Assembly (NCBI RefSeq): GCF_015493435.1
Contig: NZ_WGDD01000011.1
Coordinates: 1 to 32,433, forward strand
Length of the DNA: 32,433 nucleotides
Origin: Sulfurovum sp.
GTDB lineage: Bacteria; Campylobacterota; Campylobacteria; Campylobacterales; Sulfurovaceae
Direction: 5' to 3'
The notes under the pieces were generated by a model. That model ran no database searches, was not told the DNA's origin, and was given only the letters and a program-made list of their open reading frames with translations. Numbering within the stretch: the first letter of the stretch is position 1; each line of letters starts with the position of its first letter. A program made the translations under genes and the position numbers. Below are positions 25,503-28,377 of the stretch, piece after piece.

Positions 25503-26858
25503 ATGGATAAAATAGGGGCATTTATTATGATGCATCAGATAGAGACTTTACTGCTTGTTTTTGGGATGATCGTACTGGCGTTCATCATTACACACTGGCA
25601 GGAAGTAAAGTTCTGGTGGCTTAACTTTACGTACAATTTTCCGCTCATCGGGAAACTGTCAACACTTTCCAAAGATATAGAAGGCTTTGATGAAAAGCAC
25701 AAGTGGTTCTACTCGGAAGAAGCACTCTGCCGCGACTACTACAATTTCTACGAAAAAGTGGACAAAAACGGCGAATCGTATGATGAAGCCAAAGAATACC
25801 TGCATGCCGCAGGCGAACTGGGAAGAAAACCTACCCCTACTTTCATTTGGATCATGATCTTTGTACTCGTCATCGTCGAAGCATTCGGGTTTGCCTATGT
25901 GCTGGCCGGATTTACCATTCCGGGGGCAAGTGAAGCCACCCAGCAGAAAGGTGCCATCGGAGTTGCCGCCATGCTGGCCATTCTTCTCGTGTGGCTCACA
26001 CACATGACGGGTCAGGAACTGCACAAAAATACACTGATCAAAAAAATACGCCGCTGGTACAAGAACGATAATGCCGGCGGTTCGAACTGGCGCGATCTCA
26101 AACCGGATGAACAGCTCATTACCATAGACAATACCTTCGATGACAGCGCATCTCCAAACTACATCAGAATGCTCAACCGTCTTGATGTCAACGACAAGGT
26201 AAAAACTACCTACACAAAGACCATTCTGACGCTGATATTTATTTTTGCCGTTGCCATAGGCGCGACATACATCAGGCACCAGGTGCTTACCCAGGAAATA
26301 GCAAGTGCACATGAAAGCGCGATGAATATTTTCAACGATGATGCTTCTCCTTTCGGCGATACCCGAAATGCCGCTGCGGATGAAGATGTCGGTGCGCTCT
26401 TCGGAGACGAAGCTGCCAATGATGCGAAAGAAGATCTCTCTTCTCTTTTTGGCGGGAAAGACGCAGGTACAGCCAAGGCTTCAGGCAAAAATACCGCTGC
26501 GGTAGAAGATGAAACAAACCAGAAAGGCGGAGATGCCACATTTGTGATTTTAGGTCTTATCTTTGTCTTTATTCAGATTCTGGGCATCTTTTTCGGGATG
26601 CACTGGGACTTTGCAGGCCGCGAGTCCAAAGCAGCCTATGAATGTCTCCGCGGTTTTGCCACCAAAAAAGCCTTCCTTTCCTACTATGAAAGAGCAAGAA
26701 CACATATTGCACGGGTGGCACAGCAGCAGCTCCAGAAACTGCAGCACAAAATGAATATCATCAATGACAATTCCGGAACGGATGCTGAAACCACAGCTTT
26801 GCTGCGCAACAACAAAGAAAGAACATTCAGACAATATCTGACATTTGAGGACAAATAA
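25503..26858 (+). CDS. Uncharacterised five-span membrane protein paired with VWA-like protein
   Basis: This 451-residue protein starts at ATG 25503. AAGGAGAGAG lies just upstream and a good promoter at 25444-25474, so the 77-residue upstream extension of the frame is rejected. Five hydrophobic spans lie near residues 13-30, 113-136, 151-166, 239-256 and 346-366. The segment 32-110 is soluble and Tyr/Glu-rich (FYSEEALCRDYYNFYEK). Segment 257-345 is acidic, Ala/Gly-rich and probably disordered, with a repeated D-x-x-x-LFG motif (DVGALFG 295-301, DLSSLFG 311-317). The C-terminus (370-451) is helical, Gln-rich and basic. I recognise no family. Its stop overlaps the start of the next gene (TAATG). 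It could anchor or receive signals from that exported partner. The function is unknown. Confidence 0.8.
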   Translation: MDKIGAFIMMHQIETLLLVFGMIVLAFIITHWQEVKFWWLNFTYNFPLIGKLSTLSKDIEGFDEKHKWFYSEEALCRDYYNFYEKVDKNGESYDEAKEYLHAAGELGRKPTPTFIWIMIFVLVIVEAFGFAYVLAGFTIPGASEATQQKGAIGVAAMLAILLVWLTHMTGQELHKNTLIKKIRRWYKNDNAGGSNWRDLKPDEQLITIDNTFDDSASPNYIRMLNRLDVNDKVKTTYTKTILTLIFIFAVAIGATYIRHQVLTQEIASAHESAMNIFNDDASPFGDTRNAAADEDVGALFGDEAANDAKEDLSSLFGGKDAGTAKASGKNTAAVEDETNQKGGDATFVILGLIFVFIQILGIFFGMHWDFAGRESKAAYECLRGFATKKAFLSYYERARTHIARVAQQQLQKLQHKMNIINDNSGTDAETTALLRNNKERTFRQYLTFEDK

Positions 26859-27667
26859 TGAAACGACTGCTGCTGACACTTTTGACATTCACCGCTCTGC
26901 TTGCCGCACGCAACGACGTACCAAGCTGCTATAAAGCACTGCATATCGAAAATCCGGATCCGGGTATTGAAAAAGAACTGTTCATCCTGGTAGACCAGAC
27001 CACACAGCTTGACAAAAACCTGATGATCTACACGTACAAGAATATGATGAAATTCATCCGGAACGGCGATGCGGTGACCATCGCTTCATTCTCTTCCAAT
27101 TCAAATGGGAAATATACGGATGTATCCTATTCGGGCGCACTGGAAAACCTGCTTCCCCAAAGCGCGAAACACGAGATCGCCAAAAAGAAACTGAGAAAAT
27201 ATCAGGCATGCATGAACGGTCAGTACAAATACGCCAAAAAGAAAGCGACCAGGGCACTGGTCGCAACGCTCAAGGGCGCAAACAAAAAACTGCCGCATTC
27301 GGATATTCTCAAATCACTCGACGATATTGCGGAGCATCTCATCCAAAATGCCAAAGCCAAAGAAAAAGTGGTGCTTTTGGTTTCGGACATGATGGAACAT
27401 TCATCCATCACTTCCTTCTATGCCAAAGGTTCGCTCAAGCGTATCGATACCAAAAAAGAGATGGCCAAACTGAAAAAGAGCGGATATACAGCCGATTTCG
27501 GCGGTGCAGAGGTTTACGTCATCGGTGCAGGAATGGTCGGAAAGAAAAGCTACAGAGATTCAAAAACACTGAAAGCCCTGACCGCTTTCTGGGAAGCTTA
27601 CTTCAGGGCAAGCAATGCAAACCTGCAAGCCATCGGAACACCGATGCTGCTTGAGGACATCAAATAA
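26858..27667 (+). CDS. Exported VWA-like protein of the two-gene operon
   Basis: This is a 269-residue protein with a signal peptide (MKRLLLTLLTFTALLAA) and no other membrane span, so it is likely periplasmic. Residues 40-180 look like a von Willebrand A fold: a KELFILVDQTTQLD strand and loop (40-52) in the place of the metal-binding DxSxS motif, DAVTIASFSS (71-80), and KVVLLVSDMMEHS (170-182), where SDMM matches the usual second metal-loop strand. The MIDAS is degenerate (DQTTQ). Segment 185-220 contains a YAKGSLKRIDTKKEMAKLKK helix, and AEVYVIGAG is the last strand. The one-base overlap with the membrane-protein gene (TAATG) implies coupled translation and a physical complex. No homologue with a known role is recalled. 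Confidence 0.8.
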   Translation: MKRLLLTLLTFTALLAARNDVPSCYKALHIENPDPGIEKELFILVDQTTQLDKNLMIYTYKNMMKFIRNGDAVTIASFSSNSNGKYTDVSYSGALENLLPQSAKHEIAKKKLRKYQACMNGQYKYAKKKATRALVATLKGANKKLPHSDILKSLDDIAEHLIQNAKAKEKVVLLVSDMMEHSSITSFYAKGSLKRIDTKKEMAKLKKSGYTADFGGAEVYVIGAGMVGKKSYRDSKTLKALTAFWEAYFRASNANLQAIGTPMLLEDIK

Positions 27668-27711
27668 TTAAGAGGCCCTCTTAAGTGCCATAGAGGTATA
27701 ATGCCTCTATG
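27668..27711 (+). promoter_or_regulatory. Double inverted repeat enclosing the glycosylase start codon
   Basis: A 7-bp perfect repeat TTAAGAG-GCC-CTCTTAA (27668-27684) directly follows the VWA-gene stop. An 8-bp perfect repeat (27689-27711) with loop TATAATG follows, and its right arm contains the ATG of the next gene (27709-27711). The arms share AGAGG and CCTCT, so alternative pairings are possible. The only Shine-Dalgarno-like GAGG lies in the left arm. The loop TATAAT is a perfect -10, which would start RNA at about 27709, the A of the ATG. Confidence 0.7.
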
Positions 27712-28377
27712 AAAAATCTGCACAATGCCCTTCTTTTAAAACAACTCTACCAACTCAAACAGCTGGGCTACAAATATACCGATGTAACGCCCTATCAGGA
27801 AGAAAAAATCGACCTTCTCCTGCCCGATACACTGAAATCACTGCAGAAACAGGCGATGACCTGCCACCTCTGCGACTTGAGCAAAAGCCGGAAAAAGGTT
27901 GTCTTTGGAGAAGGCAGTCCCCATGCCGATATCCTCATCATCGGCGAAGGGCCCGGAGCTACGGAAGACAGCAGCGGAAAACCGTTCGTCGGACGTTCGG
28001 GGGAACTGCTTTCCAAAATGCTTGAAAATGTACTCGGTCTTAGCAGAGCAGATGTCTATATTACCAACATCGTCAAGTGCCGACCGCCCAACAACAGAGT
28101 CCCAACCCCGACAGAAGCACATACCTGCCAGCCCTACCTGCTCAAGCAGATAGAGCTCATCGCACCCAAACTCATTCTGACACTCGGTGCAACCGCTTAC
28201 CATTACCTGACCGGAGACGATACGGGCATCACAAAAGTCAGAGGTACGGTACATACCTACAAAAAAGCCACACTCATCCCCACCTACCACCCAAGCTACC
28301 TGCTTAGAAACCCCAGCGCGAAAAAAGAAGTATTTGAAGACCTTTTGAAGGTGAAAGAGTTGATGAAGCAGTGGTGA
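27709..28377 (+). CDS. Uracil-DNA glycosylase, family 4 (iron-sulfur)
   Basis: This 222-residue DNA repair enzyme removes uracil (from dC deamination) in the base excision pathway. The four cysteines that bind the 4Fe-4S cluster are visible (Cys52, Cys55, Cys124, Cys140), with CHLCDLSKSRKKVVFGEG at 52-69. The water-activating loop GEGPGATED is at 79-87, followed by GKPFVGRSGELL and the NIVKCRPPNNR stretch (120-130). The base-flipping His motif HPSYLLRNP is at 194-202. This is family 4, or the related bacterial TIGR00758 group, not the E. coli Ung family. The ATG lies inside the hairpin described above, and no free ribosome binding site is visible. Confidence 0.93.
   Translation: MKNLHNALLLKQLYQLKQLGYKYTDVTPYQEEKIDLLLPDTLKSLQKQAMTCHLCDLSKSRKKVVFGEGSPHADILIIGEGPGATEDSSGKPFVGRSGELLSKMLENVLGLSRADVYITNIVKCRPPNNRVPTPTEAHTCQPYLLKQIELIAPKLILTLGATAYHYLTGDDTGITKVRGTVHTYKKATLIPTYHPSYLLRNPSAKKEVFEDLLKVKELMKQW

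Follow-up and report, generated by a model that had tools for sequence, protein, structure and literature searches.

In the 32,433-nt stretch of Sulfurovum sp. DNA analysed here (hereafter the window), the uracil-DNA glycosylase gene udg begins inside an inverted repeat whose loop is a -10 promoter box, and we lean towards a reading in which this start-codon-masking hairpin keeps read-through mRNA from expressing udg, expression being left to the gene's own leaderless promoter. This promoter, TTAAG ... TATAAT, would give rise to a leaderless udg mRNA starting on, or 1-2 bases from, the ATG, with its AUG open to ribosomes. RNA reading through from the upstream gene, the existence of which we infer, would carry an extra 5' arm and fold CAUAGAGG...CCUCUAUG around the -10 sequence, burying the AUG, and we propose that this copy would consequently be poorly translated. 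We regard the element as a probable translational insulator: the position of the start site would exclude the 5' arm from udg's own transcript, the loop being the promoter box and the 3' arm holding the start codon. With the start codon hidden in read-through RNA, udg probably responds only to its own promoter.

The udg start and its predicted leaderless promoter

The udg product scored 216.5 bits against TIGR00758 (cut-off 125.3), which identifies it as a family-4 uracil-DNA glycosylase, and 139.4 bits against PF03167; the N-terminal motif MKNL[KRH]NALL begins at the same ATG in nearly all rows of the genus (Table 1). The gene upstream had been labelled VWA in an earlier, sequence-only reading of this DNA, a label that our searches did not confirm, its product having 0 NCBIfam matches at E<=0.001 and 0 Pfam matches above the cut-off. 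A known RNA family (riboswitch, thermometer or leader) was rejected, since Rfam models returned 0 matches at E<=1 in 27400-28000.

Table 1. Features around the udg start, with positions in the window
Feature	Position	Strand	Remarks
Upstream gene, unknown family	26858..27667	+	269 aa; co-directional; stop 41 nt 5' of udg
Repeat 1, TTAAGAGG-C-CCTCTTAA	27668..27684	+	overlaps TTAAG element; outside conserved element
TTAAG, probable upstream promoter element	27681..27685	+	kept at -28/-27 in relatives
Repeat 2, left arm CATAGAGG	27689..27696	+	5' of predicted +1; only in read-through RNA; covaries with right arm
-10 box TATAAT	27697..27702	+	in loop of repeat 2; same place relative to ATG in 57/70 genus rows
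Repeat 2, right arm CCTCTATG	27704..27711	+	contains udg start codon
udg, family-4 uracil-DNA glycosylase	27709..28377	+	222 aa; N-terminus MKNLHNALL

The same reading had taken the TATAAT of the loop for a -10 box that would set the 5' end of the transcript on the ATG, and comparison among relatives supports this predicted start. Standard numbering from TATAAT places the predicted +1 at 27709, the A of the udg ATG. We found udg in 68 of the 78 genomes of the genus, many of them incomplete and split into many contigs, and examined 70 udg starts, some genomes having two; a box with at least 5 of the 6 TATAAT letters lies exactly at -12..-7 in 57 of these starts, is shifted by one base in 7 and is missing from 6. 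In four of the six box-less rows (G023, G040, G049 and G063) 3 nt lie between the upstream stop and udg; the other two are G030 and G071, the latter with AAAGGAG preceding the udg ATG. Of 54 leaderless-type rows, 29 have TTAAG, ATAAG or TTAAC at -28 and 7 have it at -27. A plain scan for consensus -35/-10 promoters returned nothing at the udg start, as expected of a promoter type devoid of a -35 box. The start displays the features of Campylobacterota leaderless genes, namely a TAnAaT -10 box directly 5' of the start, an ATG as start codon and no ribosome-binding site within the predicted transcript. In the genus the udg start is conserved as one of leaderless type, with the true start site presumably at or beside the predicted one; our literature search found no transcript start-site map of Sulfurovum. 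The pattern TATAATN6ATG occurs 47 times in the same genome against 19 times for the reversed pattern, many of the sites not being gene starts, and predicted leaderless genes thus seem common in this Sulfurovum.

The start hairpin and its covariation

Both adjacent inverted repeats that had been pointed out from the sequence are present, and the right arm of the second does include the ATG. Repeat 2, CATAGAGG-TATAATG-CCTCTATG (27689-27711), is a perfect 8-bp inverted repeat whose right arm is ended by the ATG; it is predicted to fold into a stem of 8 bp, or 10 with two extra predicted pairs inside the loop, at -12.0 kcal/mol, and repeat 1 into a 7-bp stem with a 3-nt loop at -4.6 kcal/mol. The four arms also exist as described, AGAGG lying at 27671-27675 and 27692-27696 and CCTCT at 27677-27681 and 27704-27708, whereas their supposed interchangeability, and with it the alternative folds, is not conserved: the hairpin of repeat 1 did not recur in this form among the other genus rows displayed, which makes the four interchangeable arms peculiar to a single genome. 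Repeat 1 was rejected as part of the conserved element on the same ground, its absence from the relatives' rows. The alternative fold that joins arm 1 to arm 4 is predicted to be 3.2 kcal/mol worse (-13.7 against -16.9). The suggestion that GAGG might act as a Shine-Dalgarno sequence did not hold either; the motif (27693-27696) sits 5' of the predicted +1 and is not conserved, the left arms of other genomes reading GGGGG, AGGGA or AGAGA, and masking of a Shine-Dalgarno sequence was accordingly rejected as the conserved purpose of the hairpin.

A perfect 8-bp hairpin is by itself unremarkable here, the 32.4-kb window containing 12 of them (8-bp arms, loops of 3-9) where mononucleotide shuffles average 3.9; it is the conservation that goes beyond chance. 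Counting a helix as complete when its 5-pair arm core is fully paired with at least 3 Watson-Crick pairs and its loop measures 7 or 8, 27 of the 54 leaderless-type rows of the tree set carry one. Eight left-arm sequences occur in the main register, GGGAG (9), AGAGG (6), AGGAG (3), GGGGG (2), AGGGG (2) and AGAGA, AGGGA and AAGAG (1 each), every one of them with a matching right arm; the loop has a length of 8 in G020 and G061. By eye, a possible long-loop helix, AGAGTTATTATA/TATAATAGCTCT, was seen 5' of the udg ATG at about position 1501 of L016 (G067), which would be the same masking in a different register. A single contig of a 58% complete genome (L186, G014:C259:1-2600) bears udg starts at two places separated by about 1.25 kb. 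One of them has a perfect helix and is followed by a short open frame; the other has no helix and is truncated where the contig ends.

The 5-bp arm core was scored in 43 distinct leaderless-type udg rows, with and without a helix. Watson-Crick pairs fill 116 of its 215 cells; column shuffles give 91.3 +/- 6.1 for the same cells (maximum 112 among 2000), and none of 5000 whole-arm permutations exceeded 114. Slid registers of the same rows yield 17-41% Watson-Crick cells and the true register 54%. When 20 of the 70 rows were picked by hand, 21 cells had changed on both sides against 7.8 in shuffles, with 0 of 500 shuffles as high, a count that is illustrative only because these rows were chosen mostly for bearing the helix. 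A tree-aware test based on pairs of rows on non-overlapping tree paths gave, summed over the five base pairs, 13.2 concordant against 2.4 discordant independent pairs, on a tree of one protein (udg, 73 proteins) with many weak branches (29 of the 69 inner branches starred). Slides of +1, -1, +2 and -2 gave same/opposite counts of 4.6/6.4, 3.0/10.0, 4.3/2.4 and 5.8/3.0, and slides of +3, -3 and +4 counts of 1.0/3.2, 3.2/3.1 and 0.3/0.4. As judged from these alignments, the covariation is specific to this register and is not accounted for by relatedness.

Two other genes of the genus, which we take from their sequences to be ruvX and dnaG, served as controls at 30 loci each, of 55 and 58 genomes with a match. 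A predicted leaderless start is kept in 20 of the 30 ruvX and 26 of the 30 dnaG loci, and pairing stands at chance level in both, with 25/100 Watson-Crick cells and 2/20 full helices at ruvX and 23/90 and 0/18 at dnaG, against 114/215 and 19/43 for udg in this comparison. Within the genome under study, the udg helix is longer than that at any of the other 46 TATAATN6ATG sites, the best of which shows 6 pairs including two wobbles. Compensatory changes of the arms in relatives, which the sequence-only reading had named as a check, are thus found by column shuffles, by the tree-aware test and by comparison with ruvX and dnaG.

The repeats could nonetheless have arisen by template-switch (quasi-palindrome) mutation and simply be inherited and decaying, with no selection on them. 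Perfect repeats are typical products of this kind of mutation, half of the rows lack the repeats, and the surplus of hairpins in the window over shuffled sequence fits as well; the helix recurs, however, with varying arms across numerous clades of the udg tree, nearly always in the same register, it is rare or absent at ruvX and dnaG starts, and G-U intermediates are found, all of which renders an origin without selection highly unlikely.

The other genera of the family were represented by 20 rows, that is, 25 loci minus the truncated or unrelated matches L151, L159, L160, L165 and L166. TACAAT or TATAAT stands at -12 in 7 of these rows, and the complete helix in none. At L142, L149, L150, L152, L153 and L157 (genus g11) and at L161-L163 (genus g3) the udg start overlaps the upstream stop by 1 or 4 bases, and no -10 box lies at -12; it seems that udg expression alternates between leaderless and coupled modes within the family. 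At about position 1501 of L164 (G092, another genus) the udg start may be enclosed by a hairpin of two parts, an outer one of ATAGAG/CTCTAT and an inner one of GTAGG/CCTAC; this hairpin takes in the stop codon of the upstream gene, and the -10 position reads TATCCT.

The molecule that carries the hairpin and the neighbouring gene

Since the left arm lies 5' of the predicted transcript start, RNA made from udg's own promoter cannot form the hairpin and only read-through RNA can; selection must therefore act on read-through RNA or on DNA. Departures from Watson-Crick pairing in 19 distinct helix-bearing rows amount to 12 G-T cells and 0 A-C, against a ratio of about 54:32 expected from column composition. 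On this sequence evidence the 12:0 excess favours sense RNA, with roughly six lineages contributing as we read the tree. On DNA, the palindrome over -10 and +1 might be an operator that binds a dimeric regulator of udg, its half-sites changing together as specificity drifts. The dyad is indeed perfect and centred on the promoter, a place for repressor action, and both half-sites do co-change; but eight left-arm sequences within one genus and a variable loop length (8 in G020 and G061) speak against a protein-binding site, a DNA site would not favour G-T among its departures, and the 46 other TATAATN6ATG sites of the genome have no comparable dyad. We therefore hold an operator to be unlikely.

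Folding of the read-through mRNA, likewise proposed beforehand, agrees with insulation at the level of RNA: in the window the AUG is predicted to be paired with a probability of about 1.0 in read-through RNA, against 0.01-0.11 in leaderless RNA starting at 27709. In 18 of the 70 genus rows (0.7 expected), pairing of the start region exceeds that of 99 or more out of 100 upstream shuffles, and the same test singled out 0 of the 20 rows from other genera.

If the hairpin guards against read-through, its presence may be tied to the orientation of the neighbour. Where a co-directional gene ends no more than 130 nt away, 23 of 40 rows have a complete helix, vs 3 of 12 in the remaining rows (p = 0.10), and a predicted pairing of at least 0.8 is seen in 23 of 40 vs 2 of 12 (p = 0.02), these counts excluding G022, G022b and G057 (too little upstream sequence), rows without a -10 box at -12, and G026b and G014a, each the second locus of its genome. 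In tree-aware form the link amounts to 2.0 vs 0.2 pairs and is not significant; we regard it as suggestive. The rule is not a strict one, given that G006, G059, G052 and G019 lack a complete helix in spite of a nearby upstream gene, and that G001 has a perfect helix, yet a divergent upstream gene 319 nt away. The neighbour itself differs among genomes (a gene of unknown family, an S41 peptidase, divergent genes). G023/G040/G049 and G063, in which 3 nt separate udg from the upstream stop, have neither the -10 box nor the helix; the nearest tree relatives of the first three are the helix-bearing G047/G053, and that of G063 is G052. These natural variants, with promoter and helix lost, fit insulation.

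Close neighbours could also mean that a ribosome finishing the upstream gene melts the hairpin, so that udg output would follow that of its neighbour. The upstream stop of six helix-bearing rows (G045, G026, G061, G031, G047 and G053) lies exactly 24 nt 5' of the ATG, which a terminating ribosome could reach, whereas the distance is 41 nt in the window, 52 in G002 and 111 in G004, the neighbour of G001 is divergent, and no hairpin is present at the tightest spacing between udg and its neighbour, 3 nt; translational coupling thus appears quite unlikely. It is more improbable still, to the point of being hardly credible, that the hairpin stabilises the mRNA of the upstream gene or helps to end it. 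In many genomes it does come just after the upstream stop, but its register is kept with the -10 box and ATG of udg while the neighbouring gene varies, no T-run follows it, and the terminator-like sites listed for the window do not include it; a terminator was rejected for these last two reasons.

What speaks against insulation itself is that half of the leaderless-type rows (27/54) lack a complete helix. In addition, read-through RNA of a leaderless start that has no Shine-Dalgarno sequence might be poorly translated even without a hairpin. A bolder and rather doubtful reading extends insulation to a switch: when the neighbour is active, polymerase would cross the udg promoter and produce RNA with a locked start, bringing the repair enzyme down, and when it is quiet the leaderless promoter would be on. 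Long undecoded transcripts are known from yeast, and the read-through RNA of udg would then be a bacterial counterpart. Were this true, one 23-base element would serve as promoter, start site and translational lock, its -10 box doubling as the loop. The udg start offers a ready test system for such questions, with natural variants in which the helix is kept, the helix is lost or the promoter is lost.

Relation to known systems

Leaderless genes are frequently found in compact gene clusters, a setting in which one expects read-through RNA, and we found little in the searchable literature on how longer RNA is kept from blurring their expression. In the IS10/IS50 transposase and phage T4 lysozyme genes, long RNAs fold over the start and short RNAs from internal promoters do not; these differ from udg in being genes of mobile elements or phage with leaders and ribosome-binding sites. 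Our literature search did not find the combination of a leaderless start, a -10 box as loop and a DNA-repair gene as target, which is weak evidence of absence since most subscription papers were beyond its reach; the logic of a read-through lock is known from Bacillus subtilis sigG.

The leaderless mRNAs of C. jejuni have gnTAnaAT directly 5' of the ATG, no -35 box and no ribosome-binding site, and include those of the DNA-repair genes nth and mutY, according to the main text of the report (PMC3847290). The udg start matches this Campylobacterota leaderless pattern, gnTAnaAT-ATG. That same main text describes no start hairpin for such mRNAs, the terms "hairpin" and "secondary structure" occurring 0 times in it, as does "uracil" (PMC3847290).

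The closest precedent is sigG, where a hairpin is predicted to block translation of read-through RNA from the upstream spoIIG operon and cannot form in RNA from sigG's own promoter (PMC5942855). By prediction udg behaves alike, its start being paired in read-through RNA and free in own-promoter RNA, so that read-through RNA would be locked by a hairpin that its own transcript cannot form, and the pairing is retained in relatives (complete helix in 27/54 rows). The sigG hairpin has 20+ pairs, belongs to a gene with a leader and a ribosome-binding site, and has a role in sporulation (PMC5942855). At udg, by contrast, the stem measures 8-10 bp and closes around the -10 box itself, the predicted mRNA has no leader and the gene is one of DNA repair; it seems that evolution has assembled a minimal lock at this start and mended it time and again, the -10 box forming the loop and the start codon lying in the stem.
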